A DNA stretch of 64,000 bases from the NCBI RefSeq assembly GCF_004295665.1, contig NZ_CP034759.1, forward strand, positions 372,001 to 436,000, in the 5' to 3' direction. Below, piece by piece: positions 16,292 to 34,167 of this stretch (position 1 is the first letter of the stretch; the number at the start of each line of letters is the position of its first letter). The translations under genes and the position numbers were made by a program. This DNA is from Litorilituus sediminis (GTDB lineage Bacteria > Pseudomonadota > Gammaproteobacteria > Enterobacterales > Alteromonadaceae). The notes below the pieces were generated by a model. The model was not told the DNA's origin. It saw only the letters and a list, made by a program, of their open reading frames with translations, and searched no databases.

Positions 16292-16327
16292 TGATAGCAA
16301 GCAGACACTGTACTTAGCTTGCTATCA
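16292..16327 (+). promoter_or_regulatory. 11-bp inverted repeat at the norQ-norE junction
   Basis: TGATAGCAAGC (16292-16302) and GCTTGCTATCA (16317-16327) are perfectly complementary with a 14-base loop. The 3' arm ends on the first base of the likely norE ATG. No T-tract follows directly, so it looks like an mRNA processing or translation-control structure rather than a terminator. Its function is inferred. Confidence 0.45.
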
Positions 16328-16971: not shown

Positions 16972-16996
16972 TGAATGGATACTGAGTGTAAAAGTT

Positions 16997-17263
16997 ATGT
17001 TTACTATACAAGAGACGACTAAAAAAGCGCTGATAAGCTGGCTCTGGTTAATTGTACTGACTTTCTTATCCGCCTATTTAGATCGTTTTATCGGTTATGG
17101 TTGGCTTGTTGTAAGTACAGCACTTTTTGTTGTTTTTCTTAAAGGGCAGCAAATTATCGATATATTTATGGAATTGAAGCATGCGCCGCGATTTTGGCGT
17201 ATGCTATTATTAAGTTATGTATTGCTTATCCCTTTGATTCTAACACTAATATACTTAATTTAA
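16997..17263 (+). CDS. norF: NorF-like small membrane protein (cytochrome c oxidase subunit IV-type)
   Basis: An 88-aa protein with three hydrophobic helices (about residues 11-28, 32-48 and 67-87) and the segment KGQQIIDIFMELKHAPRFWR, which matches the prokaryotic cytochrome c oxidase subunit IV/NorF pattern (KxxxIxxxFMELRxAPxxWR). NorF is associated with NO reductase function in Paracoccus; its exact task is unclear. It lies 25 bases downstream of norE on the same strand. The ATG at 16997 is the only reasonable start. Confidence 0.75.
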   Translation: MFTIQETTKKALISWLWLIVLTFLSAYLDRFIGYGWLVVSTALFVVFLKGQQIIDIFMELKHAPRFWRMLLLSYVLLIPLILTLIYLI

Positions 17264-17285
17264 GTCAAGGCAAAAGGACAATGTT

Positions 17286-17684
17286 ATGATTGGCTCATCA
17301 AAACCTAGTACAAAATTCTCTGTAGTTTGTCAGTCACTGTATCTTGCCAATTTATTACTTTTGCCCGGTGTTTTCTTTTGCGTTTTACTTTATTTTTTTT
17401 ACCGATACGTGACATTAGCAGAAAGGGGCAAAGCGGTAGATAAAACATGGCAGCTTAAAACTTTGGGGATAGGTAAAATTCATTTATACCGAAGTGTACA
17501 GCTTTCATTTTTAGCTGGGATTATGCTAGTTATTTTACCCTTGCTGGTTGTATTACTGTCTGAAAAATTTGAAGCCTCGGTAATGGTTATGTTGTTCTAT
17601 TTTATTACCTTGCATGCCGCATTTGTGCTTATTGGTATGTTAAATTTATCGCGCGCCATGGCAAAAAAATTACCTTTGTTTTAA
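17286..17684 (+). CDS. Unknown membrane protein in the nor accessory block
   Basis: A 132-aa protein I do not recognise. It has a first helix at about residues 17-41 (ANLLLLPGVFFCVLLYFFY), a basic cytoplasmic loop with WQLKTLGIGKIHLYRS, two further helices at about 69-92 and 97-120, and ends KKLPLF. This predicts a three-helix inner-membrane protein. It lies 22 bases after norF and 120 bases before norD, where norC and norB sit in Pseudomonas. It shows no haem-binding CxxCH motif and is far too short for NorB, so it does not replace them. A role in NO reductase assembly is inferred from position only. Confidence 0.6.
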   Translation: MIGSSKPSTKFSVVCQSLYLANLLLLPGVFFCVLLYFFYRYVTLAERGKAVDKTWQLKTLGIGKIHLYRSVQLSFLAGIMLVILPLLVVLLSEKFEASVMVMLFYFITLHAAFVLIGMLNLSRAMAKKLPLF

Positions 17685-17729
17685 TTTAGAACAGCTAATC
17701 CTAGTAAAGTAAATCATTTCTATTAACAC

Positions 17730-17770
17730 TTGACCCATATCACAACAATACTTGAATTTATTGCTACAAT
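17730..17770 (+). promoter_or_regulatory. FNR-like box and -10 element upstream of norD
   Basis: TTGACCCATATCAC (17730-17743) matches TTGAT-N4-ATCAA at 8 of 10 specific positions. A TACAAT hexamer lies at 17765-17770, its centre 31 bases after the box centre, which is the geometry of a class II FNR-activated promoter (box at about -41). The norD ATG is at 17805. The combination suggests that norD has its own low-oxygen or NO-responsive promoter in addition to read-through from norQ. Confidence 0.6.
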
Positions 17771-17804
17771 GGCAGCATAACTTAGTAAGAAAATTAGAAG
17801 TGTT

Positions 17805-19658
17805 ATGGAAGAATGGGTTGGCGAAATTTGGCATAAATACATTACCAGAAAGGCAAATCCAGAATTTGATCAAGCAAGGGTGAGTTTTGATCAAGTCAGT
17901 AAGTCAGTTGGTATGGTTTTTCGTGCTTTAGGCGGTGATATTGTTAAGCGCGTTGAAGCTGCCTCAAGTCGTGAGTACTTAACTCGAAAGTCCTTTTTAC
18001 AAAAAATTTCCGGTGATAGCCAGCTTGTGAGTCTTGCATGGCAAGATGACGAAAGTTTGCGCTTGCCTGAATCATTAGCTGTATTTCCCACACCAGAGCT
18101 TAATTATGATCTTTATATTTGGTTAGCAGTATTAGCCGCTCATCACGATGGTCAATTTAGGCATTGGGCTAAAGATAATCAGCAATTAGTGGTTGATGTA
18201 CTTGAACAGTACCCAAGCCTAAGAGCAAGATATCAACGTTTAGCGAGTGCTTTTGTTGAGCTTCGCCCGAGTATTGACTCGCTTCCTAAAGCTGAAAAAG
18301 AGATGGAGCAGGCGATACAGCAGGGGATTCTAAAGCCGGGCTCTGTGACAGAATTTCCTTTAGTTAACTTTGCCCCGAAAGCTGTGTATTTGTGGCTTTA
18401 TCCTTCAGCGAGTTCAGAGGATGTCATACAAGCTCGCTATGATGATAAAGAATCAGAACAGAGTGATGACGAAAAGAATAAAAAGAATGCTAAGAAAACC
18501 AATAATGCTCGTAAGAAAGCTGAGCGGGTAGAATCGCCAGATGAACGTAATGGCATGATGATTTTTCGACTAGAAAGCATGTTTTCATGGAGTGAGTTTT
18601 CAAAACTGGATCGAGGCAGTGATGACAGTGACGAAGATGATGAAGACTACCAGCGAACGATAGAAGATTTAGACAAAATCACCTTATCTCAGCAACAAGA
18701 GCAAACTAAAAGTGGCCAAATAAAGGTAGATCTTGATTTACCTTCGGCATCAGAAGACGATATTCCCTTAGGAGAAGGTATTAAATTGCCAGAGTGGGAT
18801 TATCGCAAGCAGCACTTAGTTGAAGAGCGTTGTTTATTACAACCTATGCTGCCAAGAGACGCCAAAGCGGCATCTTTACCTCACCGTTTGCAAAGAACAG
18901 CAAAATCAATTCAGGCACAATTTGAGCAATTACGTAGTGTACGCTATTGGTTAAAGGCGCAACCTCAAGGAGAAGAGTTAGACTTAAGTGCTTGGTTAGA
19001 CTTTCATGTTGAAAGTAAAACTTCTGCTACTGCTGAAAAAGGATTGTTTCAATCATTTCGCGGCAACCACAGGGATATGTCTTGTTTATTGCTCGCTGAT
19101 TTATCCATGTCAACAGATGCCCACTTAGATGACGATAACCGCGTAATTGATGTCGTTCAAGATAGCCTGTTACTTTTTGGTGAAGCGCTGAGTTCGGTAG
19201 GTGATAACTTTGCAATGTATGGCTTTTCATCAGTAAGGCGCACTAATGTACGCTTTACTATGCTGAAGAATTTTAATGAAGCCTATAGTAATCATGTAAG
19301 AGGGCGTATTCAGGCAATAAAACCTGGGTTTTATACTCGTATGGGGGCTGCTATTAGGCAAGCAACTAAGGTCATTAATGAACAAAAAACCACAGAAAAA
19401 TTATTGCTAATTTTAACGGATGGCAAACCCAACGATATAGATCATTATGAAGGTCGTTTTGGTATAGAAGATACCCATCAAGCAATTTGTGAGGCGAAAC
19501 GATTAGGTATTAAACCGTTTTGCATTACTATCGATGTAGATGCACAAGACTATTTACCTTATTTATTCGGTAGTGATGGTTTTACGCAAATATTAAGGCC
19601 TGCACAGCTGCCAACACGACTACCACAGCTGTATCATCAGCTGACATCACAAAACTAA
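17805..19658 (+). CDS. norD: NorD-type VWA domain protein
   Basis: A 617-aa protein, normal for NorD. The N-terminal half is helical, followed by a highly charged linker (about residues 205-310, rich in Asp, Glu and Lys). The C-terminal von Willebrand A domain (about residues 425-610) has a MIDAS motif CLLLADLSMSTDAHL (DxSxS) and LILTDGKPNDIDHYEG with the later MIDAS Asp. NorD pairs with the NorQ ATPase to activate cytochrome-c-dependent NO reductase. It has its own FNR-like promoter. The ATG at 17805 gives MEEWVGEIWHKYIT. NorB and NorC are not encoded nearby, so the client must be elsewhere in the genome or different. Confidence 0.92.
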   Translation: MEEWVGEIWHKYITRKANPEFDQARVSFDQVSKSVGMVFRALGGDIVKRVEAASSREYLTRKSFLQKISGDSQLVSLAWQDDESLRLPESLAVFPTPELNYDLYIWLAVLAAHHDGQFRHWAKDNQQLVVDVLEQYPSLRARYQRLASAFVELRPSIDSLPKAEKEMEQAIQQGILKPGSVTEFPLVNFAPKAVYLWLYPSASSEDVIQARYDDKESEQSDDEKNKKNAKKTNNARKKAERVESPDERNGMMIFRLESMFSWSEFSKLDRGSDDSDEDDEDYQRTIEDLDKITLSQQQEQTKSGQIKVDLDLPSASEDDIPLGEGIKLPEWDYRKQHLVEERCLLQPMLPRDAKAASLPHRLQRTAKSIQAQFEQLRSVRYWLKAQPQGEELDLSAWLDFHVESKTSATAEKGLFQSFRGNHRDMSCLLLADLSMSTDAHLDDDNRVIDVVQDSLLLFGEALSSVGDNFAMYGFSSVRRTNVRFTMLKNFNEAYSNHVRGRIQAIKPGFYTRMGAAIRQATKVINEQKTTEKLLLILTDGKPNDIDHYEGRFGIEDTHQAICEAKRLGIKPFCITIDVDAQDYLPYLFGSDGFTQILRPAQLPTRLPQLYHQLTSQN

Positions 19659-20104: not shown

Positions 20105-20150
20105 TAAAAACAAAGCAAAAAATAACAAAAAGACTGAAATGGAAGACACC

Positions 20151-20426
20151 ATGATTAAGTTGCCCAGTGAGCTAACAATCGCTCAAGTTGATGCCTATCA
20201 AAAAGAAATCATTCCTTTAATTGAAGAAAGTAAGTCTATTACCATTGATGACAGTGAATTAGTCAGGGTTGACACTATAGGTGTGCAATTCATCTTAGCC
20301 GTAGTTACCTATATCTTAGCTCAGGGTAAGAGCATTACTTGGCAATCTAAATCAAAAATCTTAAAAGAAAGTATTAAGCAACTTGGGATCAGTGATGCAA
20401 TTTTATTGCAATACGTCATGGACTGA
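20151..20426 (+). CDS. STAS domain protein (first STAS of the cluster)
   Basis: A 91-aa protein that is one STAS domain (MlaB/anti-sigma-factor-antagonist fold). The loop that in SpoIIAA carries the phosphorylatable serine reads VRVDTIGVQFIL, with Thr-Ile in place of Ser-Ser or Ser-Ala. ATG 20151 is preferred because GGAAG lies 5 bases upstream; an in-frame ATG at 20139 adds four residues and lacks a site. It opens the chemosensory cluster immediately before cheY-cheA. STAS proteins occur at this place in some gammaproteobacterial che clusters. It may report array activity to a partner-switching protein such as the one encoded at 31201, which is inference. Confidence 0.8.
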   Translation: MIKLPSELTIAQVDAYQKEIIPLIEESKSITIDDSELVRVDTIGVQFILAVVTYILAQGKSITWQSKSKILKESIKQLGISDAILLQYVMD

Positions 20427-20488: not shown

Positions 20489-20851
20489 ATGACAAAAGTG
20501 TTAGTTGTAGATGACTCAAACTCTATCCGAGATATGGTCAGCTTTACCTTGAAAAGTGCAGGTTATCAAACCGTAGAAGCTAAAGACGGTCAAGAAGGGT
20601 TAAATCAAGCAAAATCAGGAGCTTTTGATTTAGTCATTTCAGATGTCAATATGCCGAATATGGACGGTATTACCCTTTGCACAGAGCTTCGTAAGTTACC
20701 AAGTTTTAAATTTACACCGGTTTTAATGCTGACAACTGAGAGCTCAACGGATATGAAAATGCGAGGTAAAGCAGCAGGGGCAACAGGGTGGTTAGTGAAA
20801 CCTTTTAACCCAGAAAAACTTTTGGCAACAATTAAGCGTGTGGTTAGGTAA
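20489..20851 (+). CDS. cheY: CheY-like single-domain response regulator
   Basis: A 120-aa receiver domain. It has the acidic pocket VVDDSNS (D8-D9), phospho-acceptor Asp52 (ISDVNMPNMDG), the switch Thr in LMLTTESS and the conserved Lys in WLVKPFNP. It carries no output domain. It is followed after 6 bases by cheA, so it is the most likely direct target of this CheA. The ATG at 20489 follows GAGGAAATATGC. As it is not among flagellar genes, its target need not be the flagellar motor. Confidence 0.93.
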   Translation: MTKVLVVDDSNSIRDMVSFTLKSAGYQTVEAKDGQEGLNQAKSGAFDLVISDVNMPNMDGITLCTELRKLPSFKFTPVLMLTTESSTDMKMRGKAAGATGWLVKPFNPEKLLATIKRVVR

Positions 20852-20857: not shown

Positions 20858-22945
20858 ATGTCAGTCGATCTTTCACAATTTATTCCCAGCTTTCTAGAAG
20901 AGAGCTTTGAAGGTTTAGAGATCATGGAGTCAGGTTTACTCAATCTAAAACCAGGGGATAACGAAGTCATTCATTCCATTTTTCGCGCAGCGCATTCAAT
21001 TAAAGGTGGCGCTGGTACCTTTGGCTTTGAAAATGTTACTGACTTTACCCATTTGGTAGAAACCTTACTTGATGAAATGCGTGATGGCAGACGCGAAATC
21101 ACCAAAGAAGATACGGAAATACTCTTAGAATCTGTAGATTGCATGCGTTTATTAATTGAAGCTGCACGTGATGGTGAAGATTATGATAGTGAAAAGATTG
21201 AAAGTACTTCTAAACGTTTGACGATCACGCTAGGTGAAGGCTGTGCTCGCGATGAATCTTCAGAGCCAGAGCAAGCACAACAAGCAAGTCATAATGCACA
21301 ATATCACATTAACTTTGTCCCAGAACATTGCCTTGCCAAAACGGGTAACGATCCATTATTTCTGTTTAATGCCTTGACCGAACTTGGTAATTTATCACTG
21401 GCTGCCAATACCAGTGAATTACCTGCATTAACAGATATTGACCCACAAGAATTGTATTTAAGTTGGCAACTTACATTAGCAACAGATGCTAGCGAAGACG
21501 ATATTAAAGAAATATTTGAATGGGTTGAAGATGAGTGTTTACTTGAGATCACTCAGCAAGCTGCGCCAAACACAAACACACCCGCAGAAGCTAACCGTAC
21601 TGATGATCTCCCTGTCGAGACAACAACACAGCCGGAGCAACAAGCCGCTGTTGACAAAGATGATGCAAGTACCAATGTAGCCGAGAAAGATAAAGGTAAA
21701 GCAAAATCAAAAGCTAAGTCAGATGTAGGCTCAATAAGAGTCGGGGTAGATAAAGTTGATAGCTTAATTAATTTGGTTGGTGAATTAGTTATCACCCAAT
21801 CTATGTTATCTGAGCTTGGCAGTGATTTTCACATGTCGAAAATTGAAAAGCTTACCAGTGGTCTAGAGCAGTTATTACAAAACACGAAAGAGTTACAAGA
21901 AAGTGTCATGCGCATTCGCATGTTACCTATTAGCTTTGCTTTTAATCGCTTTCCACGTTTAGTTCACGATTTGTCCATAAAAACAGGAAAAGAAGTTGAG
22001 CTGGTAATTAAAGGTGAGCAAACAGAGCTTGATAAAACGGTTATGGAGCAAATAGGCGACCCCTTGGTACATTTGGTTCGTAATGCGGTCGATCACGGTA
22101 TTGAGCCAGCAGAAGTGAGAATAGCAGCAGGGAAAAAGCAGCAAGGTACTATTTCTCTCGATGCTTATCATCAAGGCGGTAATATTGTTATTGAAATATC
22201 GGATGATGGTGGCGGTATTGATAGAAATGCTGTTTTTAACAAGGCGTTTGAAAAAGGCCTAATAGAAAGCAATGCCTCGTTATCTGATAGCCAAGTATAT
22301 GACCTATTATTCGAGCCAGGATTTTCTACTGCCAGTGAAGTTACCGACATCTCAGGTAGAGGCGTTGGTATGGATGTTGTTAAACGTAACATTCAAGCAC
22401 TCGGAGGACGTATTCAAGTCGAGTCTACAAAAGGCCAAGGCAGTACTTTTAAAGTCAATTTGCCCTTAACGCTAGCCATATTAGATGGACAGTTAGTCAA
22501 GGTCGGCAGTGAAACTTACATTATCCCATTAATATCAATTGTTGAGTCACTACAAATAGATAAAGAATTATTAAACCGAGTTTCTGGTGATATGGTTTTG
22601 TATAGGCTAAGAGACGATAACGTACCAATTCTTCCTATTTATCAATTGTTTAATTTAGAAGCTGATTTCACTGAACTTGACAACGCGTTACTGGTTGTGG
22701 TTGAAGCAGATGGTCAGAAGGTTGGGCTAATGGTGGATGATTTATTAGCTCAGCAGCAGGTTGTTATTAAAAGCCTTAAAGATAATTATCAACAAGTTGC
22801 TGGCGTCTCTGGTGCGACGATATTAGGTGATGGCTCAGTGGCTATGATCCTTGATATACCCGGAATGATTCAAATGGCGCTGAATAATGCCCAACATGCT
22901 CAAACTCTACAAACTAAAGCTTCATATGGAGAACTTATGTCATGA
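20858..22945 (+). CDS. cheA: Chemotaxis histidine kinase CheA
   Basis: A 695-aa protein with full CheA domain order. P1 HPt has phospho-acceptor His46 in FRAAHSIKGGAGTFGF. A P2-like domain covers about residues 145-230. P3 dimerisation begins at GSIRVGVDKVDSLINLVGEL (about residue 288). The P4 ATPase has the N box HLVRNAVDHGIEP, G1 ISDDGGGID and G2 GRGVGMDVVK. The C-terminal P5 CheW-like domain includes GATILGDGSVAMILDIPG. It phosphorylates CheY and CheB in response to receptors. It overlaps cheW by 4 bases (ATGA). It belongs to an Aer2/CheD-containing type of array by context. No key residue appears to be missing. Confidence 0.96.
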   Translation: MSVDLSQFIPSFLEESFEGLEIMESGLLNLKPGDNEVIHSIFRAAHSIKGGAGTFGFENVTDFTHLVETLLDEMRDGRREITKEDTEILLESVDCMRLLIEAARDGEDYDSEKIESTSKRLTITLGEGCARDESSEPEQAQQASHNAQYHINFVPEHCLAKTGNDPLFLFNALTELGNLSLAANTSELPALTDIDPQELYLSWQLTLATDASEDDIKEIFEWVEDECLLEITQQAAPNTNTPAEANRTDDLPVETTTQPEQQAAVDKDDASTNVAEKDKGKAKSKAKSDVGSIRVGVDKVDSLINLVGELVITQSMLSELGSDFHMSKIEKLTSGLEQLLQNTKELQESVMRIRMLPISFAFNRFPRLVHDLSIKTGKEVELVIKGEQTELDKTVMEQIGDPLVHLVRNAVDHGIEPAEVRIAAGKKQQGTISLDAYHQGGNIVIEISDDGGGIDRNAVFNKAFEKGLIESNASLSDSQVYDLLFEPGFSTASEVTDISGRGVGMDVVKRNIQALGGRIQVESTKGQGSTFKVNLPLTLAILDGQLVKVGSETYIIPLISIVESLQIDKELLNRVSGDMVLYRLRDDNVPILPIYQLFNLEADFTELDNALLVVVEADGQKVGLMVDDLLAQQQVVIKSLKDNYQQVAGVSGATILGDGSVAMILDIPGMIQMALNNAQHAQTLQTKASYGELMS

Positions 22946-23469
22946 ATTTACAAGCAATGGCACACGAAATTCCCGTTGAAGGTGAACAAACACTTGAAGG
23001 TATAGATTTTATCACCAGTGGCGATCAGTACCTTACTTTTATGCTTTCTAATGAACAATATGCCGTAGATATTTTATGTGTTGAAGAGATCCGCAGCTGG
23101 GAAAAGCCAACTATCATTCCTAATTCTCCGAGCCATATAAAAGGTGTGATCAATATGCGCGGCGTAATAGTGCCTATTGTAGATCTTCGCTTAAAGTTCA
23201 ATTTAGGTGCGGCGGCATACAGTGAAACAACCGTTGTTATTGTGTTGACATATCAAGGCGAGCAATCTACGCGCACTATAGGTTTTGTTGTTGATGCGGT
23301 TTCAGACGTATTGAATGTTGAGGAGTGTGAAATTAAACCTGCGCCGGCGTTTGGTAGCTGTGTACCTCAACAATATATCGATGGACTTATTAACGCCGAA
23401 GCTAAAGTCGTCACCTTATTAGATGTCGGTAATTTACAGAAAATAGAAAAAAATCAGATACATAGCTAA
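22942..23469 (+). CDS. cheW: Chemotaxis coupling protein CheW (first copy)
   Basis: A 175-aa CheW domain protein with an N-terminal extension of about 25 residues. It has QYLTFMLSNEQYAVDILCVEEIRSW and the conserved HIKGVINMRGVIVPIVDLR block, then GFVVDAVSDVLNV. CheW bridges receptor tips and CheA P5 in the array. The start ATG at 22942 overlaps the cheA stop. A second, similar CheW follows after a short gap, so the array may use two couplers. Confidence 0.94.
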   Translation: MNLQAMAHEIPVEGEQTLEGIDFITSGDQYLTFMLSNEQYAVDILCVEEIRSWEKPTIIPNSPSHIKGVINMRGVIVPIVDLRLKFNLGAAAYSETTVVIVLTYQGEQSTRTIGFVVDAVSDVLNVEECEIKPAPAFGSCVPQQYIDGLINAEAKVVTLLDVGNLQKIEKNQIHS

Positions 23470-23492
23470 TAGTAAGTTTGATAGGCATACCT

Positions 23493-24011
23493 ATGATTGA
23501 CAGTGAACAGGAATATTTAACCTTTATGTTGCAAGGCGAAGAGTATGGAATTGATATTCTTTGTGTGCAAGAGATACGAGTATGGAGCTCAGTAACAGAG
23601 TTGCCAAATAAACCTAGCTATTTAAAAGGCGTGATTAACTTGAGAGGCGTGATCATCCCAATCATAGACCTTAGGCTAAGGTTTGGTCATCAACCACTAG
23701 ATTATGATGATCAAACTGTCACCGTGATTTTGCGTCAACAAAAAGAAAATAGAACCATGGTTGTTGGCCTCGTTGTAGACGCAGTATCTGAAGTTTATAA
23801 ATTTGAACCACAATCAATTCGACCAGCACCAGCATTTGGTAGCCAAATAGATAGTTGCTTTTTAAAAGGCTTAGCAACCGCAGAAGATAAATTAATCATT
23901 CTACTTGATAGTGACACACTTTTAAGTGAAGACGATTTGTACAGTATTGAGCAGCAGAAAAATACAGAACACGAGAGCAATGATGCAGAAGATAACATGA
24001 TAGCAAGTTAA
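23493..24011 (+). CDS. Chemotaxis coupling protein CheW (second copy)
   Basis: A 172-aa CheW domain protein, clearly paralogous to the preceding one (EYLTFMLQGEEYGIDILCVQEIR; YLKGVINLRGVIIPIIDLR; GLVVDAVSEVYKF; IRPAPAFGS). It has an acidic C-terminal tail not shared by the first copy. ATG 23493 is chosen over TTG 23478 because only the former has a plausible site (TAGGC) at suitable distance. Tandem cheW genes directly before a receptor gene suggest specialised coupling for this receptor, but the division of labour is unknown. Confidence 0.92.
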   Translation: MIDSEQEYLTFMLQGEEYGIDILCVQEIRVWSSVTELPNKPSYLKGVINLRGVIIPIIDLRLRFGHQPLDYDDQTVTVILRQQKENRTMVVGLVVDAVSEVYKFEPQSIRPAPAFGSQIDSCFLKGLATAEDKLIILLDSDTLLSEDDLYSIEQQKNTEHESNDAEDNMIAS

Positions 24012-24089: not shown

Positions 24090-26888
24090 ATGACACCAAA
24101 ACAAATAAGTTTAGTCCAGCAAAGCTGGAAAAAGGTCTTGCCGATTGCACCAAAGGCAGCAGAAATCTTTTATCAAACACTATTTGAAATGGACCCTTCT
24201 TTAGCAAGCTTATTTCCCGAAGATTTAAGCGAGCAACACAAGAAGTTAATGGCCATGCTTGATACTGCTGTTAAGTTACTTGATGATCCTGAAAAACTCA
24301 TTCCTGCATTAGAAAAGCTTGGTGTAAAACATCTAGATTATGGTACTCAGACTGAGCACTATGAAACTGTTGGCGCGGCTTTGATCAAAACATTAGCGAT
24401 AGGGCTAGATAAAGAATTTACAGCCTCTGTTAAAAGAGCATGGACAGCGGTATATAAAACACTCTCATCTACCATGATAAATGCCGCTAATGCAGCAAAA
24501 AATTTGGATGAAACCAACTCTAAACCTAATAAAACTAAAGGCTCGGCAATGGATATGAAGACTCAACATAGCAATGACTTAGCAGTTCGTTTACAAGGTG
24601 CATTAGATCAATCAACTACTGCCTTTATGATGATTAATCGAGACTTTGAAATAACCTACTTTAACAAAGCAACCTTAGCGTTATTAAAAAAGCACGAACA
24701 AACGTTTGCCAAGAAATGGCCTGGCTTTACAGCCAATGAAGATGATTTAATGGCCACTAATATTGATATTTTTCATCATAATCCTGCTCATCAGCGTAAG
24801 TTATTATCGGATCCCAATAACCTCCCTTATAAAACTGATATTTATATTGAGCATTTAACTATTGAGCTCAATGTCACTGCTATTTCAGATAGCAAGGGTG
24901 AATATATTGGTAATTCATTGGAATGGGCTGATGTTACAGAGGTGAGAGCGAAACAAAATCAAGCGGCGCAACTCTTAGGAGCAATAGAGCAATCTGCAAC
25001 CGCTAATATGATGATAGATCGTGATTTTAATATTACCTATGCCAATGTAGCATCATTGAAATTATTAAAAGAGCATGAAGCAACATTTGCAAGTATCTGG
25101 CCTGGTTTTTCCGCTGATGCTGATAGTTTAATAGGCTTGAATATAGACATGTTTCACAAGAGCCCTGAACATCAACGGAAACTATTAGCAGATCCAAATA
25201 ACTTGCCTTATAAAACTGATATTAAAATTGCTCATTTAATTTTTGAGTTAAATGTTAGCGCAATTCGTGACTCAAGCGGGGAGTATATAGGGAATTCGTT
25301 AGAGTGGCAGGATGTAACAGAGCAAAGAGCTAAGTCAGTTGAAGTGGGCCGCCTAACGTCTGCAGTTGAGGGTATGACCACCAATTTGATGATGGCAGAT
25401 CTTAAAGGCAATATTGTTTATGCAAACCCTGCTGTGACGGAGATGTTACGTAAGAGGGAGGCACAGCTTAGAACTGTATTACCTTCATTTAGTGTTGATA
25501 CTATGGTGGGTAGTAACTTTGATAGCTTCCACCGCAATCCGGCACATCAACAAAACCTGCTTGGTAACGCGGATAATATGCCTTATACCACGGAAATCAG
25601 TGTTGTTGGATTAACCTTTGAATTAACAGCAATTGCGTTAAGAGACGAAGATGGTAACCATGTAGGTAATGCCGTTCAATGGTTAGATTTAACGGAAGAG
25701 AAGGATGCACAAGGTCAAATTGAGAATATGATCACCGATGCTATTTCCGGTAAGCTTGATAGTAGAATTGCTACTGAAAGCTATGAAGGCTTTATGAAAA
25801 TTTTAGGTGATAATATCAACAATTTAATGGATGCTATTGTTGAACCTATCACTGATGCTATCAATATAGCGCAAGCACTAGCAGATGGTGATTTAACTCA
25901 GTCTATGAGTAATGATTATGGTGGTGAGTTCCTTGCTTTAGCAAATGCGATGAATGGCTCAATTGAAAATTTGACCAATATGGTAACAGAGATCCGAAAT
26001 GCATCGACCAATGTGTTTGACTCAGCCAGAGAAATTGCACAAGGAAATAATGAGCTTAGTCATAGAACAGAGTCACAAGCATCAAGCCTTGAAGAAACCG
26101 CTTCAGCAATGGAAGAGTTAACCAGTACTGTTCAGCAAAATGCAGAAAACACAACAGAGGCGAGTAAGTTATCTAATTCGGTTATGGAAAAAGCCAGTAA
26201 TGGTGGCTCCGTGGTGCGAAATGCCATTACTGCGATGAGCGACATTAACAAATCAAGCAAGAAGATTGCCGATATCATCAGTGTTATTGATGAAATAGCC
26301 TTTCAAACTAATTTATTAGCACTTAATGCTGCCGTTGAGGCCGCGAGAGCTGGTGAGCAAGGGCGTGGATTTGCGGTTGTAGCCGCTGAAGTAAGAAATT
26401 TAGCGCAACGCTCAGCAGGCGCTGCCAAAGAAATTAAAGGTTTGATTAATGATAGCGTTGAAGCTGTAGGTCAAGGAACAAAATTAGTTGATGAAACAGG
26501 GCAAACATTTAGTGAGTTAGTCACATCAATAGAGGAAGTGAGTAAGATGATTTCTGATATTGATAGCGCAGGTAAAGAGCAATCTGCTGGCATAGGTGAA
26601 GTGAGTGCAGCAGTAAGCCAAATGGATGAGATGACGCAGCAAAATGCCGCGCTTGTCGAAGAGGCCGCAGCATCAAGTAAGTCGATGGAAGAACAATCTC
26701 AGGCATTATTAGAACAGGTTTCTTTCTTTAATGATGGCTCAAGTGAAGTCAATGCTACGCAGGTAATTCGTTCTCCTCGAGAGGCAAAGTCTAATTTTAG
26801 CCCGTCAACAACAATACCTACGCCGGCGAATAATCGTAAAGTTAAGCGACCCGTTACCCCAATAGATCAAGAGTGGGAAGAGTTTTAG
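24090..26888 (+). CDS. Soluble chemoreceptor: globin - three PAS - MCP signalling domain
   Basis: A 932-aa receptor with no membrane helix. Residues 1-130 are a haemoglobin-like globin of the Vitreoscilla/flavohaemoglobin type: Tyr28 at B10 in AEIFYQTLF, Phe42 at CD1 in SLFP, proximal His81 in [14 protein letters not shown]. Three tandem PAS domains follow (about 165-285, 292-410, 418-535), each with F-H-x-x-P-x-H-Q (His229, His356, His481) and a late Trp (W279, W406, W531). Those positions resemble the haem His and ligand-site Trp of Aer2 PAS domains, as I remember them. A HAMP-like linker (about 545-640) leads to the methyl-accepting domain with hairpin tip [20 protein letters not shown]. 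The C-terminus EWEEF fits the CheR-docking pentapeptide. cheR follows directly. Confidence 0.9.
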
Positions 26889-26900
26889 GGATTGGTGAAT

Positions 26901-27785
26901 ATGGTAAATTATACCAATCATGATAAAAGTGCAGCACAGCGCGCTGAAGTTGTTAGACTCAGTGATGATGATTTTAATTTTATCTGCACATTTGTTTATC
27001 AATCGACAGGGATTGTCTTAAATGCCAATAAAAGAGAAATGGTCTATCGACGATTAACCCGTATTATTCGCGATAGAAAACTTAAGTCATTTAGTGATTA
27101 CTGTGCTTTGCTAAAAGAAAATAGCGAGCAGGAGAAAAACTATTTTATCAATGCAATAACAACAAATTTAACCAGTTTTTTTCGGGAAGAGCATCACTTT
27201 GATTATTTAACTGAGCATGAACTACCTCAGTTGAAAAAGTTAAAGCGTGTTGATAGTACAGGTAAAAATCGCCTTCGAATTTGGTCATGCGCAAGCTCAA
27301 CGGGAGAAGAGCCTTATAGTATTGCTATGACAATCTTTGAAGCATTGAAGCAAGAACTAAATCAATGGGATGCAAAAATATTAGCAACAGACATTGATAG
27401 TAATGTTTTGGCTAAGGGAAAAGCTGGCGTGTATGATTTTAAACGAATTGAGCACTTGCCTCTGGCATTAAAAAAGATGTATTTCTATCAAAGTAATGAT
27501 GGAAATCAGCACTATGTCAAGGTACATGAAAAGCTGCAAAACCTTATTACCTTTAAGTTGTTAAACCTCCTGCATAGCTGGCCGATGAAAGGACCATTTG
27601 ATGTTATTTTTTGTCGTAATGTCATTATTTATTTTGATAAAAAAACCCAGCAAGAGCTTTTTTCACGTTTCTATGAATTGTTAACGCCAGGCGGGTTATT
27701 GTTTTTGGGACACAGTGAGAGTTTAGGCCATTACCAACAGTACTTTGAGTGTGTTGGCAGAACAATCTTTCGAAAACCTAAATAA
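26901..27785 (+). CDS. cheR: Chemotaxis protein methyltransferase CheR
   Basis: A 294-aa protein with the all-alpha N-terminal CheR domain (LTSFFREEHHF) and the SAM-dependent methyltransferase domain (RIWSCASSTGEEPYSIAM, then ATDIDSNVLAKGKAGVY and FDVIFCRNVIIYF). It methylates receptor glutamates in the cytoplasm. ATG 26901 gives MVNYTNHD; an in-frame TTG at 26892 is less likely because it sits too close to the AGGG site. It directly follows the receptor that ends in a pentapeptide tether, which would recruit this CheR through its beta-subdomain. Confidence 0.95.
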   Translation: MVNYTNHDKSAAQRAEVVRLSDDDFNFICTFVYQSTGIVLNANKREMVYRRLTRIIRDRKLKSFSDYCALLKENSEQEKNYFINAITTNLTSFFREEHHFDYLTEHELPQLKKLKRVDSTGKNRLRIWSCASSTGEEPYSIAMTIFEALKQELNQWDAKILATDIDSNVLAKGKAGVYDFKRIEHLPLALKKMYFYQSNDGNQHYVKVHEKLQNLITFKLLNLLHSWPMKGPFDVIFCRNVIIYFDKKTQQELFSRFYELLTPGGLLFLGHSESLGHYQQYFECVGRTIFRKPK

Positions 27786-27787: not shown

Positions 27788-28471
27788 ATGCACTTGTTGA
27801 AAGAGGTTCATGTGGATAGAACAAATCACCCACTAGTAGAGCAATGCTTAGCAACTTGTTTACCTGAGTTTAGTGAAATAAATCATTATTGGGATAAGCA
27901 AAGAGATATGGTCGTTGCCAAAATTTTACCAGGTGAGTTCTATATGACCACAGATAATGTCGCTATAGCAACGACCTTAGGCTCTTGTATTTCAGCGTGC
28001 ATCTGGGATTGTCGTACACATATTGGCGGTATGAATCATTTTATGCTGCCGATCACCAATAAGGAGTTACACGAAATTAACTGGGGGCAACGTGAAAAGA
28101 CATCTGATGCTACCCGTTATGGGAATTTTGCTATGGAGCACCTGATTAATACTATTTTAAAAGCGGGTGGTCGTAGAGCAAATTTAAGGGCAAAGCTATT
28201 TGGTGGTGCAAAAGTGTTAAATCAAATGTCAGATGTTGGTAAACGTAATATTGACTTTGCTTTAGCGTATTTAGCACAAGAAAACATTCAAATTGAAAGC
28301 AGTGATATAGGTGATATTTTTCCAAGGAAAGTTATTTTTGAACCCAGTAGTGGTCGGGCTTTTGTTAAGCGATTAGACAACTTACATAATGATACCATTA
28401 CTAAACGAGAAATTGATTACCGCAGTAAAATTGAGCATCAACCTAAAGAAGGTGAGGTTGAATTATTTTAA
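27788..28471 (+). CDS. cheD: Chemoreceptor glutamine deamidase CheD
   Basis: A 227-aa protein. CheD core motifs are present: ATTLGSCISACIWD with the catalytic Cys, GGMNHFMLP with the catalytic His, and KLFGGAKVL. CheD deamidates receptor glutamines to glutamates that CheR can methylate. The N-terminal 40 residues and a C-terminal tail extend beyond the core. The tail ends EGEVELF, a pattern shared with two other proteins of this cluster. It lies 2 bases after cheR. No cheC, the usual CheD partner in Bacillus, is seen. Confidence 0.94.
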   Translation: MHLLKEVHVDRTNHPLVEQCLATCLPEFSEINHYWDKQRDMVVAKILPGEFYMTTDNVAIATTLGSCISACIWDCRTHIGGMNHFMLPITNKELHEINWGQREKTSDATRYGNFAMEHLINTILKAGGRRANLRAKLFGGAKVLNQMSDVGKRNIDFALAYLAQENIQIESSDIGDIFPRKVIFEPSSGRAFVKRLDNLHNDTITKREIDYRSKIEHQPKEGEVELF

Positions 28472-28535: not shown

Positions 28536-29636
28536 ATGGATAAAATTAAAGTACTGGTGGTTGATGATTCTTCAGTTATTCGAAGTATTGTAAAAGAATC
28601 ACTTAGTGCAGCTAAACACATTGAGGTTGTTGGCGAGGCAGAAGACCCTTTTGTCGCTAGGGAGTTGATTAAGAAACTTAACCCCGATGTGTTAACGCTA
28701 GATGTTGAAATGCCAAAAATGGACGGCATCACCTTTTTACATAATTTGATGCGATTAAGGCCTATGCCAGTTGTTATGTTGTCAACGTTAACAACAAAAG
28801 GAGCCGATATAACGCTACAGGCGCTTGAGATAGGCGCGGTTGACTTTATAGCTAAGCCAAGCGTTCAAGATTTATTAGCAACACAAAAAAGTTTTCAAGA
28901 AACGATTATTGAGAAAGTAACTCAAGCAGGTAACGTTGATCAAAAGAATTTTAAATTAGCTGATACCATTAGCAAAACTCCGACACGCCAAGGCACTAAT
29001 GCCCCTAAAAAATATCAAGGGTGTGCTCGAAATAACCACCTAATAGCCATTGGTGCATCCACAGGTGGTACAGAAGCCATAAAAGAAATATTAACTAAGC
29101 TACCAGAAAATAGCCCTCCGGTTGTTATTGCCCAGCATATTCCTAAGACCTTTAGTTTGCGTTTTGCTGAGCGTGTCAATGCCCTTTGTCATATCCAAGT
29201 GCAAGAAGCAGGTCATGGTCAAAAAATTAAGGTAGGTAATGCTTATATCGCACCTGGTGATAAGCACTTAGTTGTAGTGCAAAAAAATGGCGCTTTGTTT
29301 TGTACGTTAGAAGATGGGCCTGAGGTAAATCGGCATAAACCCGCGGTTGATGTTTTGTTTGAATCATTAACAGAATTTGCCAATAACGTTCAGGCGATAT
29401 TGCTAACGGGTATGGGGCAAGATGGTGCACAGGGAATGCTGCAATTAAGGCAAGCAGGCGCACGAACTGTTATTCAAGATAAGGCGACAAGTTTAATTTG
29501 GGGAATGCCAGGAAAAGCCTTTGCGCTTGACGCTCATACGGTTCAATTACCGCTAGCAGAAATAACCGCTAATGTTTTGGCGTTTAGTCAATTAACGCGA
29601 GAGCAAATGAAAGAGGCGTTATATGCACATCAATAA
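28536..29636 (+). CDS. cheB: Chemotaxis methylesterase CheB
   Basis: A 366-aa protein with a receiver domain (Asp56 in [12 protein letters not shown], Lys in IAKPS) and a methylesterase domain with the catalytic triad in [10 protein letters not shown] (Ser), VIAQHIP (His) and [10 protein letters not shown] (Asp). It removes methyl groups from receptors and deamidates glutamine when phosphorylated by CheA. The ATG at 28536 opens with the receiver core [13 protein letters not shown]. The last 14 bases overlap the start of the next gene, indicating translational coupling. Confidence 0.96.
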
Positions 29637-30810
29637 GAAGTTATATATTTTTTTACAATTAGTCATTTTGTTACTCGTTATTAATCAACTATTCTTTCAA
29701 GTAAATTGGCTGTTTTATCTTTGTGTAATTGCTTGTTTTAGCTCTGTTTTATTACTTTGGTTTAAACAAGAAAGTCCCATTAAACAATATGCTCAGCTTG
29801 ACAGCAGTCAAATGCCAGAGGTGGATAATCAGTTAATTCATGAAGTGATTAATGAATTACAAATCTTTTTACATCAAGAGATTAGTATTATTGAAAATGA
29901 AATCACTCGAACAGCATCTTTAGTGGAAGAAGCCATTCAAGGGATATCTGATAGCTTTAAAAGCTTAGAAAGCTTGACTGAACAACAACAAGACATGATT
30001 AAAGAATTGATTAATCAAAATCATGATATGGGTGATGAAGAAGGAACGAGTTTAGAAAGTTTTGTGGAAAACTCAAATAAGACTTTAGATGACTTTGTTA
30101 ATGTGATTGTAAATACCAGTAAACAAAGTTTAGAAACCATGAGTTATACCGATGATATGGTGTCACAGTTTGATGGTATTTTTAGCATTCTTGCACAAGT
30201 AGAAGGGCTGGCAACACAAACGAATTTATTAGCACTAAATGCTGCGATAGAGGCAGCACGCGCTGGCGATGCGGGCAGAGGGTTTGCGGTTGTTGCCAAT
30301 GAAGTTCGTTCTTTGTCGGTGGACTCTACTGAACTGAATCAAGAAATACGTAATGAGATAAATCAAGCCAAGGAAATAATCGCTAAGCTGAGAGTTTCTG
30401 TTGAAACTATGGCATCAGCTGATATGACGTCTACACTGGAAGCAAAAGATAGAATGTCGGTGATGATGAAACATGTGGAAGAGGTAAATAAATACACTAA
30501 TACAAGCATTGATGATTTGGGCATTATTATTCCGAAAGTTAATGAGGCGGTATCTTTAGGTATAAGATCATTGCAATTTGAAGATTTAACGCGGCAATCA
30601 CTGCAATCTTTGCAATTTAATCTCGAGAGTATTCACAGTGTTAGTGATGTGTTGGCTCAATTTGGTCCTAATAAAGATATTAATGTTCATCAGCAATTAT
30701 TGGACTTGAAAGAAAAGTGTCAAAACGTTTACCAAAAAACCAAGCATGAAGAAGCAAACCGTAGCGTGAAGCAATTTGATTTAAATGAAGGTGACGTGGA
30801 GTTGTTTTAA
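29623..30810 (+). CDS. Membrane-anchored mini-chemoreceptor without a sensory domain
   Basis: A 395-aa protein. Residues about 8-26 and 29-46 form a tight membrane hairpin with essentially no periplasmic loop. The rest is coiled-coil with a conserved receptor hairpin tip ([35 protein letters not shown]). The methylation regions are short and the C-terminal half ([31 protein letters not shown]) differs from ordinary receptors. It ends NEGDVELF, like CheD and the 388-aa receiver protein of this cluster. It overlaps cheB by 14 bases. It may scaffold or tune the array at the membrane; no ligand is suggested. Confidence 0.82.
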
Positions 30811-30863
30811 TTAAATTAGTTTACTTAATTTATAGCTAATACTTGATAGGGAGAGTTACAAAT

Positions 30864-31169
30864 ATGACAGTTTCTACTAATGTAATCGATGAAGGTAGGC
30901 AGTTAGTGATTTCGATAAAAGAGCGATTTGACTTTTCTCTGCACCAAGAGTTTCGAGATGCATACAGCCATTATGATAAACCTGACACTACCTATATTTT
31001 GGACTTAAGCCAAACGGATTATATGGATAGCTCTGCTTTGGGCATGATTTTGTTGCTTAAAGATCATGTTGAGATGAATGCCGGTCAGCTGATTATTAGT
31101 AAACCGAGTGAAACCGTAAACAAGATCCTTGAAATAGCACAATTCCATCGATTAATAACAATTGAATAG
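30864..31169 (+). CDS. STAS domain anti-sigma factor antagonist (second STAS of the cluster)
   Basis: A 101-aa protein with one STAS domain. The canonical phosphorylation loop is present: DLSQTDYMDSSALGMILLL, with Ser-Ser after Asp as in SpoIIAA and RsbV. ATG 30864 is preferred because GGGAGAG precedes it; the longer TTG start at 30843 would bury this site. It lies 31 bases before a REC-PP2C-kinase protein, the pairing seen for HsbA and HsbR in Pseudomonas. There HsbR phosphorylates or dephosphorylates the STAS protein to release an anti-sigma factor or a diguanylate cyclase. That parallel is known for the family; its use here is inference. Confidence 0.88.
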   Translation: MTVSTNVIDEGRQLVISIKERFDFSLHQEFRDAYSHYDKPDTTYILDLSQTDYMDSSALGMILLLKDHVEMNAGQLIISKPSETVNKILEIAQFHRLITIE

Positions 31170-31200: not shown

Positions 31201-32922
31201 ATGGCTAAAAATCAAATGTTTGCGCTAGTGGTAGATGACTCTCAGACTCAATGTAAGGTATTAACCGTATTGCTTGAGGAGGAGGGCTATCAAGTTATTG
31301 TTGCCAATGATGGTGCAACTGGTGTTGAACGTTATATTAAACATCAACCCGACTTGGTATTGATGGATATCAATATGCCCGTCATGAATGGCTTTGATGC
31401 AGCAAGGAAAATTAAACAGCTATCAGGTGAAGGTAATTTAGCGCCATTAATCTTTATTACCAGTATGGATAGCGACGAAGCTTTTATAAATAGTGTTGAT
31501 GCCGGGGGAGATGGTATTTTAGTCAGGCCTTTTTCACCACCAGTTTTCAAAGCTAAAATTAAATCAATTCAACGTATAAGCAATCTTTACCAGCAAGTAA
31601 AAAACTTACAGCAAGAGCAACAAAGTGATGCTGAGTTAGCTGAAAAAATGATGTCTGAAGTCATAGAAGCGAGAAACTTTGCTTTAGATAAAGTAAGCGT
31701 TATTAAAAAGGCCGCAACCATATTTAGTGGTGATATTCAATTGACAGCCTTATGCCCTAATGGTGATGTTAATGTTTTATTAGGTGATTTTACGGGCCAT
31801 GGTTTGCGTTCATCAATTGGGGCAATACCTGTTGCAGAAACCTTTAGAGCTATGACCAAAAAAGGTTTTTCCATATTGGAAATTGTCGCTCAGTTAAATA
31901 AGCAGTTGCATAATTTATTACCCAGTGACTTATTTTTTGCTGCTTGTTTTGCTTGTATCTCCGAGCATGAAAAATCGGCTTATATTTTTAATGCCGGTAT
32001 GCCTGATGGTTATATCATCTCAACCACAGGACAAATAAAGTACCGACTTCCCTCAAACCACCCACCTTTAGGTATTTTAAAGACCTTGTTACCAGATGCA
32101 CAGTTGAGTATTTATGACACTAGTGATGATGATCGTTTAGTGTTTATTTCTGACGGTATAATTGAAGCAAGAAATGAACAAGGGCAACTGTTCGGTGTAG
32201 AACGCTTTGAAAAGGCTGCGACTGCAGGTGCTGCACAAAACGCTATTGTTAACAATGTAAACAATTCTCTGCAAGACTTTTGTCATAATATGCCACAAGA
32301 AGATGATATTTCATTAGTGGATATCCCCTGTACTGGCTGGCAATCATCAGCCCAAACAAGCAAAGTTGTTATCCCACAAAGTATCAATAATGATGATATG
32401 TATGATGATGCCAACCCAAGTTGGTCATGGAGTATGGAGTTAACGGGAGCATCATTAAAAACAGTAAACCCAATACCACTTGTGATGAACCAGGTTAATG
32501 AGATTGAAGGTGCAGGGGAGCATTGGCATAACTTATATACTATTTTAACTGAGCTGTTTGTTAATGCCCTTGATCATGGTGTGTTAGGACTAAGCTCTTC
32601 ACTAAAAGATTCTGCACAAGGTTTTAGCCAATACTTTAATGAAAGAACTAAACGTTTAGAGAGCTTAACAACTGGCTTTGTCAGTATTGCATTAAGATAT
32701 TACCCTTTCGACCGGGGTGGCAAGATGGTGGTAGTTATTCGTGACAGTGGTACTGGCTTTGAAATATTGGATGTCATCCGAGATAACAGTGTTGCTGTTG
32801 AAAGTGGCGCAAGTTTAAGTGGTCGGGGAATAGAACTGGTTAATCAGCTTTGTGACACCTTAGAGTATCAAAACGCTGGCGCAACTGTTACTGCCAGTTA
32901 CGTATGGCATTTGCCTAGTTAG
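31201..32922 (+). CDS. REC - PP2C phosphatase (SpoIIE/RsbU) - RsbW-like kinase protein (HsbR-like)
   Basis: A 573-aa three-domain protein. Residues about 5-125 are a receiver (VVDDSQTQ, phospho-acceptor Asp56 in LMDINMPVMNGF). Residues about 175-385 are a SpoIIE-type phosphatase (GDIQLTA, LLGDFTGHGLRSS, FISDGIIEARNEQGQLFG, QEDDISLV). Residues about 430-573 are a GHKL kinase domain (TELFVNALDHGVLG, RDSGTGF, SGRGIELVNQLCD). It likely sets the phosphorylation state of the STAS protein encoded just upstream, under control of phosphorylation of its receiver by the cluster's kinases. All catalytic motifs look intact. The start ATG 31201 follows AAGGATAGTAA. Confidence 0.9.
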   Translation: MAKNQMFALVVDDSQTQCKVLTVLLEEEGYQVIVANDGATGVERYIKHQPDLVLMDINMPVMNGFDAARKIKQLSGEGNLAPLIFITSMDSDEAFINSVDAGGDGILVRPFSPPVFKAKIKSIQRISNLYQQVKNLQQEQQSDAELAEKMMSEVIEARNFALDKVSVIKKAATIFSGDIQLTALCPNGDVNVLLGDFTGHGLRSSIGAIPVAETFRAMTKKGFSILEIVAQLNKQLHNLLPSDLFFAACFACISEHEKSAYIFNAGMPDGYIISTTGQIKYRLPSNHPPLGILKTLLPDAQLSIYDTSDDDRLVFISDGIIEARNEQGQLFGVERFEKAATAGAAQNAIVNNVNNSLQDFCHNMPQEDDISLVDIPCTGWQSSAQTSKVVIPQSINNDDMYDDANPSWSWSMELTGASLKTVNPIPLVMNQVNEIEGAGEHWHNLYTILTELFVNALDHGVLGLSSSLKDSAQGFSQYFNERTKRLESLTTGFVSIALRYYPFDRGGKMVVVIRDSGTGFEILDVIRDNSVAVESGASLSGRGIELVNQLCDTLEYQNAGATVTASYVWHLPS

Positions 32923-33000
32923 GAAAGTATACGCTATTAGTTAATGTAATGAGTGACATGAGTTGATTTGTAAGTAGTGAAAATTAAGAAGGATTTGAAT

Positions 33001-34167
33001 ATGGTAAAGCACAATATATTGATTATTGATGACGATATTGATTACTTGAAGTTACTTGCAGAAAGTTTAGAAGATATTTTTGAAGTGAAATGCGCGAGCA
33101 ATCTAGCGGTTGCTGAAGATTTATTAAAGGAGAACTTGGCCTTTGATATTGCCTTAGTTGATGAAAATATTGGTCTTGAAAAGGGCTCTAGCTGGATTAA
33201 AAAGCATCATGGTACAAAGAATGCGCCTACCTCCTTTGTATTATATTCTGGGCTGGCGAGTGAAGAAGCTATATTGCGCGGTTTAGAGTGCGGTGCAGAT
33301 GATTTTCTCGCTAAACCTATCTCACTTATTGCCTTACATTCAAAATTAGAAAAATTAATTGAATATCAAGATAAAATTCACGATTTTGAAGATGAAATCA
33401 AATCTAAAGAGAACGTCATTAATATTTCAATGGCGCAGGCTTCTAAATACGGTAGCTGCATGCAGCTTACTTCAAAATTAAATCGCTGTTTTTCCACAGA
33501 AGAAATTCGGGATGAGGTTTTTTCTTATCTTTACAGTATGGGCTTACATGGTTGTATCGCTTTTTATCCTATTAATGAAAAACCGACATTTTTTAATGCT
33601 CAAAAGGGCGTGTGTTCACCCGTAGAAATTGAAGTGATGGAGCTATTAAAAGTAAAGCCTAGACTTTATCGATTTGGCTCTAGAACGATATTCAATCATA
33701 ACTTGGTTTCTGTATTAATTTTAAATTTAGAAGATGGCACCATAGATACTGATATTTATATTGATGCACTTGCCTCAGTAATCGAGTGTATTGGCGCGAG
33801 AATGGCGTTTATAACCTATAAAAACTCACTTATTGATGTGCAGGAACAAATTAAACAGGCTGTTTCAACGACCAAAAAAATGGTTGAGATTTCAAAGCAT
33901 CATCAGCAAGAGGTGATGAATGAAATAGTACAAAAAATGGGAACTAGCTTTCATATTCTCGATATGACGCAAGAGCAAGAAGATTACTTGACAGATATGG
34001 TGCATGGCGCGTTAAAAAAACATTCGCAAGATGACATAAACTTTATGGAAGTGTCTCAGCTGCTTGATCAAGCATTGCACAGCGTTGATAAGCTACAAAT
34101 GCTTAATACCGAGCAAGCTTGTGATTCAATTCATCAAGAATTTGATGAGGAGGATGAGTTATTTTGA
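33001..34167 (+). CDS. Receiver-domain protein with unrecognised C-terminal region
   Basis: A 388-aa protein. Residues about 5-120 are a receiver (IIDDDIDYL, probable phospho-acceptor Asp54 in ALVDENIGLEKGS, Lys in FLAKPISL). The remaining 260 residues match no family I know. They contain a cysteine-bearing segment (GSCMQLTSKLNRCF), a region with GAF-like alternation (VEIEVMELLKVKPRLYRF; VSVLILNLEDG), a helical stretch with a QEDYLTDMVHGALKK segment, and an acidic tail ending EEDELF. ATG 33001 is chosen because AAGGA precedes it by 8 bases; GTG 32977 is upstream. It overlaps the next gene (TTGA), so it is probably co-translated with the hybrid kinase. Confidence 0.75.
   Translation: MVKHNILIIDDDIDYLKLLAESLEDIFEVKCASNLAVAEDLLKENLAFDIALVDENIGLEKGSSWIKKHHGTKNAPTSFVLYSGLASEEAILRGLECGADDFLAKPISLIALHSKLEKLIEYQDKIHDFEDEIKSKENVINISMAQASKYGSCMQLTSKLNRCFSTEEIRDEVFSYLYSMGLHGCIAFYPINEKPTFFNAQKGVCSPVEIEVMELLKVKPRLYRFGSRTIFNHNLVSVLILNLEDGTIDTDIYIDALASVIECIGARMAFITYKNSLIDVQEQIKQAVSTTKKMVEISKHHQQEVMNEIVQKMGTSFHILDMTQEQEDYLTDMVHGALKKHSQDDINFMEVSQLLDQALHSVDKLQMLNTEQACDSIHQEFDEEDELF

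Follow-up and report, generated by a model that had tools for sequence, protein, structure and literature searches.

The receptor encoded at positions 24090-26888 of the window, by which we mean the whole 64,000-nucleotide stretch of the Litorilituus sediminis genome analysed here, is by its sequence an Aer2-like protein with three haem-PAS domains and an additional N-terminal globin. Our preferred reading, to which we give a chance slightly better than even, is that it is a cytosolic receptor of the Aer2 type, working in an F7 stage-1 array, with a class-1 globin fused N-terminally, and that this globin would act as a second, tighter O2/NO input within the array. The Aer2 core, the F7 stage-1 gene order, the intact pocket, purifying selection and the disordered linker are all visible in the sequences and the predicted structure; that the globin is a true gas input at all we rate at about even.

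The reading frame (+) encodes 932 amino acids, ends in EWEEF and shows no apparent membrane span in its hydropathy profile; the protein is read as soluble. Pfam matched Globin (PF00042; residues 27-129, E 5.5e-15), PAS, HAMP_2 (574-628) and MCPsignal (693-849), and the receptor divides as follows:

24090..24485, +, class-1 globin, receptor residues 1-132 (B10 Tyr28, CD1 Phe42, E7 Gln49, E11 Leu53, F8 His81, Tyr91, Trp118)
24486..24581, +, residues 133-164: last turns of the globin's final helix, disordered part at 142-161, beginning of the helix leading into PAS1 (pLDDT, divergence)
24582..24956, +, haem-PAS1, residues 165-289, with His229 and Trp279 (profile built in this analysis, Foldseek)
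24966..25337, +, haem-PAS2, residues 293-416, with His356 and Trp406 (profile built in this analysis)
25344..25712, +, haem-PAS3, residues 419-541, with His481 and Trp531 (profile built in this analysis, alignment)
25725..26009, +, HAMP region, residues about 546-640 (Pfam: one HAMP at 574-628)
26166..26636, +, MCP signalling domain, residues 693-849 (Pfam MCPsignal, 8.8e-55)
26637..26888, +, C-terminal tail whose EWEEF end is the CheR-tether pentapeptide x-[HFYW]-x2-[HFYW], plus stop codon (sequence)

A soluble chemoreceptor with a globin and three PAS domains had been proposed here in an initial annotation made from the letters alone, and this was confirmed, with Tyr28, Phe42 and His81 lying in the pocket. 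Its assignment of the N-terminus to the haemoglobin type, and not to the class of the globin-coupled sensors, also held: PF00042 scored 56.3 bits against a cut-off of 22 bits in the test for a class-1 globin, whereas the protoglobin-type family PF11563 of the HemAT-class sensors was not matched in the receptor at E 0.01. In HMM comparisons the N-terminus matched globin models (PF00042 at 27-129; NF009805, limited to residues 4-137), and Pfam and NCBIfam scans detected no FAD/NAD reductase domains behind the globin, which is thus not a flavohaemoglobin (Hmp). The closest solved globins were Hell's Gate globin I and HGbRL (1.7e-23 and 5.9e-23), both from Methylacidiphilum, of which Hell's Gate globin I binds O2 very tightly. 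This globin has the same pocket residues as the window globin (Tyr B10, Gln E7 and Leu E11); it is a stand-alone protein and HGbRL is a Roadblock/LC7 fusion, so that neither sits on a receptor, unlike the window globin. Pocket and predicted fold together suggest that the receptor globin would bind haem and gas.

All three PAS domains of the receptor carry an FH-x-x-P-x-HQ segment and a late Trp, and the alignment, with proximal His and distal Trp in three of three, bore out the Aer2 type claimed for them earlier. PAS1 and PAS2 are 69% identical, while PAS3 is 38-40% identical to either. The His of the "FH" pair falls, in an alignment mapped by hand, on His234 of P. aeruginosa Aer2, the haem ligand reported for that protein in the accessible part of PMC13401364; the role of the Trp is stated in the accessible part of PMC9855816. 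The receptor PAS matched the Aer2 structures 6ceq and 3vol; the PAS fold is assigned from Foldseek, the VIA-align structure rows covering residues 1-139 only. The NCBIfam equivalog for the Vibrio aerotaxis transducer Aer2 (NF041847), a model of 804 positions, matched residues 146-932 with its positions 15-804; the score of 1073.9 bits is below its cut-off of 1200 bits, so the receptor is not filed under that equivalog. Up to four haems on one chain, as initially annotated, is supported as a prediction from sequence, and the receptor may be a graded O2/NO sensor. By analogy with Aer2, two HAMPs may follow the last PAS, the length of the region permitting two. The C-terminal pentapeptide is a feature of Aer2-like F7 receptors, counted in 96 of 130 in the accessible text of PMC7184735. 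Residues 142-161 have a pLDDT below 50 in the predicted structure and form a disordered linker from globin to PAS1; this linker is 42% identical between the window receptor (read as L041) and its same-genus counterpart L042, a pair whose globins are 86% identical. The predicted model has a pTM of 0.45, at which domain packing is not readable from it.

The receptor gene is embedded in the following cluster:

20139..20426, +, STAS protein (anti-sigma-factor antagonist), first gene of the F7 stage-1 cluster, 5' of cheY (STAS_2, 1.1e-8)
20489..20851, +, CheY (Pfam Response_reg, 3.7e-30)
20858..22945, +, CheA, globin insert absent in this genome (Pfam Hpt, H-kinase_dim, HATPase_c, CheW)
22942..23469, +, CheW 1 (Pfam CheW, 5.7e-34)
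23478..24011, +, CheW 2 (Pfam CheW, 6.8e-36)
26892..27785, +, CheR (Pfam CheR, 2.2e-63)
27788..28471, +, CheD, ends in GEVELF (sequence, Pfam)
28536..29636, +, CheB (Pfam CheB_methylest, 8.2e-57)
29623..30810, +, receptor taken as McpA-like from its gene order; hydrophobic segment at the N-terminus (KD19 2.37, residue 7), ends in GDVELF (Pfam MCPsignal)
30843..31169, +, STAS protein, CrsA-like by gene order (Pfam STAS, 6.5e-13)
31201..32922, +, response regulator - SpoIIE phosphatase - HATPase_c_2, CrsR-like by gene order (Pfam)

The order STAS-cheY-cheA-cheW-cheW-receptor-cheR-cheD-cheB-mcpA-STAS-phosphatase is the complete F7 "stage 1" order given in the accessible part of PMC7184735, which describes what the early F7 system does as unknown. 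A CrsA/CrsR-type layout is present, in that a STAS protein adjoins a receiver-SpoIIE-HATPase regulator within the che cluster. The Che1 cluster of S. oneidensis likewise holds Aer2, McpA, CheA/W/Y/R/D/B, a STAS protein and a regulator, and its CrsA/CrsR pair is a partner switch on RpoS (PMC9855816, accessible part); by analogy, RpoS availability is a likely output of the window cluster. Aer2so of S. oneidensis has two PAS domains compared with three in the window, and the word "globin" does not occur in the accessible part of the Che1 paper (PMC9855816).

Some further features of the locus and genome were observed. CheD and the McpA-like protein share a C-terminal motif resembling G[DE][VI][ED]LF (window ends 28471 and 30810), and a regulator at 32977-34167 ends in EEDELF. 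An [ED][LIV]F tail was present on 40 of 43 CheD ends and in 30 of 48 rows obtained with the McpA query; of the 15 other McpA-query rows shown, 12 carry tails of the WEEF type and so belong to Aer2-like receptors. The McpA tail is described as conserved, with an unclear role, in the accessible part of PMC7184735, and our guess is that the tails of CheD, the McpA-like receptor and the regulator are a shared docking site. Upstream of the che cluster, at 15408-19658, lie genes for a NorQ/CbbQ-type ATPase, a COX3-like protein and a VWA protein, the last two presumably NorE- and NorD-like, respectively, by name. Of 48 loci, many with little upstream sequence, 5 have a VWA gene next to the cluster (among these 5, L034 and L078 are one genome and the others are same-genus genomes), and a nitric-oxide link via the VWA/NorQ-like genes is a weak lead. 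Rfam detected the antisense overlapping sRNA pair SdsR/RyeB and SraC/RyeA at 3953-4176. Genome-wide, MCPsignal had 31 matches (30 above the cut-off), and a search of the same genome found no other PF00042 match, hence no flavohaemoglobin of that family there.

The Aer2 proteins of V. cholerae (two PAS domains) and V. vulnificus (three) and Aer2so of S. oneidensis share with the window receptor the haem-PAS His and Trp, HAMP, MCP domain and an F7-type cluster. The Vibrio Aer2 and Aer2so layouts, as described in the accessible parts of the sources, are without a globin, whereas the window receptor has globin and linker ahead of PAS1. HemAT also carries an N-terminal globin on a soluble MCP; its globin, however, is of the protoglobin class PF11563 (accessible part of PMC6194562) and not PF00042, and its parts are globin, linker and signalling domain only (accessible part of PMC13401364). 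The initial annotation had known of no described receptor with this exact domain order, and this did not hold. The order recurs in relatives, and a 2018 survey (Sharma et al., PMC6194562, accessible part) lists seven PAS+globin+MCPsignal proteins in 8,075 genomes, among them Corallococcus Cc_4972 and proteins of Colwellia sp. MT41 and Glaciecola nitratireducens. Moreover, minus its globin the window protein is a three-PAS Aer2-like receptor, comparable to the three-PAS Aer2 of V. vulnificus (PMC13401364, accessible part). Cc_4972 has the same Pfam domain set and is reported as cytosolic, but its globin is given as Bac_globin PF01152 in the accessible part of PMC6194562, as opposed to PF00042 in the window; the Colwellia sp. 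MT41 protein is probably an orthologue of the window receptor. "Aer2" does not occur in the accessible main text of PMC6194562, nor "Colwellia" or "hemoglobin" in that of PMC7184735. The globin-PAS-HAMP-MCP order is thus not unique to the window, and the domain set is already in print because PMC6194562 counted such proteins, Colwellia sp. MT41 included. The receptor is an Aer2 variant with an already tallied domain set, and what may be new lies in partner-protein globins, pocket decay and the PAS series. A globin in CheW, in CheA or on STAS, repeated pocket decay and a series of PAS numbers were not found in the literature searched, from which subscription journals were mostly absent; for CheW or CheA with a globin, no title or abstract opening among the papers listed dealt with such a protein.

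Frames with a globin + PAS + MCP signature were confirmed by hand count in at least 31 of the 295 genomes of the window's family, six of them with a decayed pocket. With the globin of another receptor as query, at least 40 of 340 sampled Gammaproteobacteria, from at least 23 family codes, proved to have a globin-matching open frame no shorter than 590 aa, a hand count that was selected on frame size with the MCP domain verified in part, and that takes in the window's own genome and G413, which has internal stops. Thirty loci from this search yielded 30 frames in which a globin is combined with one or more PAS; the MCP signature is seen in 4 of them, and the other 26 leave the fetched piece, several of the latter being whole in the set of 61 receptors described below. 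Among the matches listed for a phylum sample of 398 genomes, the globin+PAS rows all belong to the window's family (G000, G039, G002, G001 and, twice, G027); a further globin match came from G886, in a frame of 1108 aa that contains a stop. One globin-PAS-MCP receptor was present in a Myxococcota MAG (L037).

Variation was followed in 61 distinct receptors, the window's own being L041; L038, L040, L056 and L064 (within L031-L114) had no frame with MCP and PAS motifs and were left out. A globin was present in 56 of the 61, which is not a population rate because the set was gathered by similarity to window residues 1-560; L039, L068, L091, L092 and L114 had no globin match. The complete set of six pocket residues (Tyr B10, Phe CD1, Gln E7, Leu E11, His F8, Tyr91) is kept in 49 of the 56 globin-bearing receptors. 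L086 deviates at E11 only, L050-L055 at three or more pocket positions, and L052 and L055 lack the proximal His; since the pocket of L050-L055 is partly lost and five of the 61 receptors are globin-less, the globin is not essential everywhere. In the receptor tree, the intact-pocket L033 groups with L052-L054, beside L050/L051, and L055 lies elsewhere; by these placements the number of pocket changes appears to be no less than two and is probably three. The intact globins of relatives evolve, as far as codon comparisons tell, under purifying selection (dN/dS 0.026 for L045/L048, 0.128 for L081/L082, 0.095 for L034/L077 and 0.120 for L049/L088), while globins with a changed pocket gave 0.106 (L050/L051) and 0.429 (L053/L054); the window/L042 pair is saturated in dS and yields no dN/dS. 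L052 and L053 are 35% identical in the globin and 90% in PAS. The number of PAS domains in the globin-bearing receptors of the set ranges from 2 to 7 by profile, with a single PAS in L186 outside it; the added copies in Colwellia and its kin are spaced 127 aa apart, with a last step of 125. Among individual layouts, a 1448-aa receptor frame (L035:7971-12314) holds a globin and seven Aer2-type PAS domains, and two orthologues (L091:5528-8287, -, and L092:5151-7940, -) have one PAS and no globin, L091 with a HAMP ahead of the PAS that resembles the P. aeruginosa Aer2 layout. A 592-aa globin - PAS - MCP receptor (L183:3094-4869, +) had no HAMP detected by Pfam.

The same kind of globin was also found in partner proteins. 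Across 64 loci (2,062 frames), 50 globin frames had an MCP signature and 13 did not. The 13 include a receptor cut by a contig end (L184:8173), a stand-alone 148-aa globin (L187) and the receptor L183; the remainder are six stand-alone-like or extension/double-globin frames and four partner-protein fusions. The long globin frames of L176, L177, L178, L179, L180 and L182 look like spurious upstream extensions of stand-alone globins, and in L173, L174 and L175 proteins of about 310 aa show, by eye, a globin followed by a second globin-like stretch. Genomes with a partner-protein globin are five in all, namely two for CheW, two for STAS and one for CheA. In L105:7982-8923 (-) and L189:9034-9975 (+), a 314-aa CheW carries a globin within a surface loop, so that Pfam reports Globin together with a CheW match split in two, and the gene lies directly upstream of a globin-PAS-MCP receptor. 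No CheA, CheR, CheD or CheB matches were found around it within 15 kb (L105) and 18 kb (L189); as only CheW and receptor match the window's che genes there, the pair is not shown in an F7 cluster. L105 and L189 represent two species that share a genus code, with 59% identity, and a third genome of the family (G1029) has a 209-aa CheW frame, apparently without insert, beside a globin frame. A 315-aa globin + STAS protein (L098:9086-10030, -) is encoded in a full F7 cluster, flanked there by cheW and the receptor gene, its STAS part being 32% identical to the window's upstream STAS; a second copy (G639, L217) with 74% identity, from another species under that genus code and likewise counted as lying in an F7 locus, follows cheA and cheW. 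An 838-aa CheA (L184:4368-6881, +) has the globin between P2 region and dimerisation domain, in the order cheY, CheA-globin, cheW, globin receptor, contig end, which we counted as an F7 locus. With no second genome of its family or order in the set, this case rests on one contig of one MAG that is 86% complete and 6% contaminated. Four of the five partner-protein globins were aligned, and these retain Tyr, Phe, Gln and His in the pocket; in BLAST the partner-protein globins are 47-54% identical to the best-scoring receptor globin of a broad group (B, below) compared with 33-42% to stand-alone globins; the two CheW globins are nearest each other, at 51%.

The origin of the receptor globin was examined in a 79-row globin tree from which the six decayed globins were left out. 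The window's group (A; 24 rows, 99/89) falls among stand-alone globins, while the broad group (B) joins the CheA, CheW and STAS globins (29 rows, 100/99) across a long branch of about 1.6. Among the matches listed, the window globin is up to 54% identical to stand-alone globins, with 44-54% for the majority of the better matches, compared with 33% to the broad-group globin of L059, which itself reaches 43% with stand-alone globins. These relations suggest two recruitments of the receptor globin; holding A, B and the partner-protein globins as one clade was not rejected (p-AU 0.25), and we therefore make no claim of two origins. For L080, a separate origin was suggested both by FastTree and by the 79-row tree but was dropped, as A and L080 as one clade have the higher likelihood. 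In the receptor tree, built by a quick method with same-genus L042, L044 and L087 in it but without the window row (dropped as a copy of L041), the receptors of the window's family have as neighbours L135-L137, three-PAS receptors from the same order that lack a globin. The tree requires globin presence to change five times, two of these changes being forced by starred branches. A wider view, which we advance tentatively as possible rather than probable, is that in several gammaproteobacterial lineages the haem globin is a mobile sensory module of Aer2/F7 signalling, found on the receptor, in a CheW loop, in a CheA linker and on a STAS output protein, so that gas would be read at receptor, coupling protein, kinase and output; the receptor globin would have been recruited at least twice.

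The original work on V. vulnificus Aer2 reportedly differs from a description of its PAS1 as "largely indispensable", and neither is relied on here. That description stands in the accessible part of PMC13401364, which also describes O2 sensing by the PAS haems of other Aer2 proteins through PAS3 and HAMP to CheA. By this precedent, O2 on the PAS haems of the window receptor would act through PAS3 and HAMP on CheA, and CheA, by analogy to Che1, on CheY and on the STAS/regulator-phosphatase pair that would set RpoS availability. The globin, binding haem, would add the second and tighter O2/NO input, most likely through ligand-dependent contacts or local gas binding and not through a rigid helix to PAS1, since the linker is flexible and changes fast and related globins occur in three other covalent settings. 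The flexible linker would also suit a globin that is a tethered gas buffer or NO scavenger, holding O2 or NO at the PAS haems in a useful range, and so would the pocket shared with the tight O2 binder Hell's Gate globin I, the same kind of globin in CheW, CheA and STAS settings, the single PF00042 match of the genome and the NorQ/CbbQ-like, COX3-like and presumably NorD-like genes just upstream. However, catalytic NO removal would need a partner because the reductase domain is absent, a VWA gene accompanies just 5 of the 48 clusters, and a few array-bound globins should buffer little gas, and we consider this role somewhat unlikely.

That the domain is retained for fold or assembly only, much as stressosome RsbR proteins contain haem-free globin folds, appears very unlikely to us: L050-L055 do keep the domain with an altered pocket, L052 and L055 even without the proximal His, and L050/L051 still have a low dN/dS, but the six pocket residues persist in 49 of 56 receptors, and one decayed lineage shows relaxed selection (the L053/L054 dN/dS of 0.43 and the L052-L053 divergence confined largely to the globin), which is what loss of a haem function would predict. 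The intact MCP domain and CheR tether would also fit a receptor for ordinary flagellar aerotaxis whose globin widens the O2 range, and Aer2 of other species gives tumbling responses in E. coli (accessible part of PMC13401364). Yet F7 stage-1 organisms also hold F6, which steers the flagellum in many of them (accessible part of PMC7184735), and the window's genome has two more long frames of CheA size, of 723 and 740 aa, each containing a CheW domain, so we regard this as quite unlikely.

Chemosensory arrays are thought to receive their input at the receptors, and a globin inside CheW or CheA would mean that gas enters as a signal through the coupling protein or through the kinase. Receptors with 2 to 7 haem-PAS domains, intact or decayed globins and globin-less orthologues constitute natural variants for asking what each haem contributes. 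The presence of O2/NO-type sensors and a partner switch in one cluster points to gas control of a stress response, which is testable. Overall, haem sensors of several kinds may together serve a single signalling array in reading gases.
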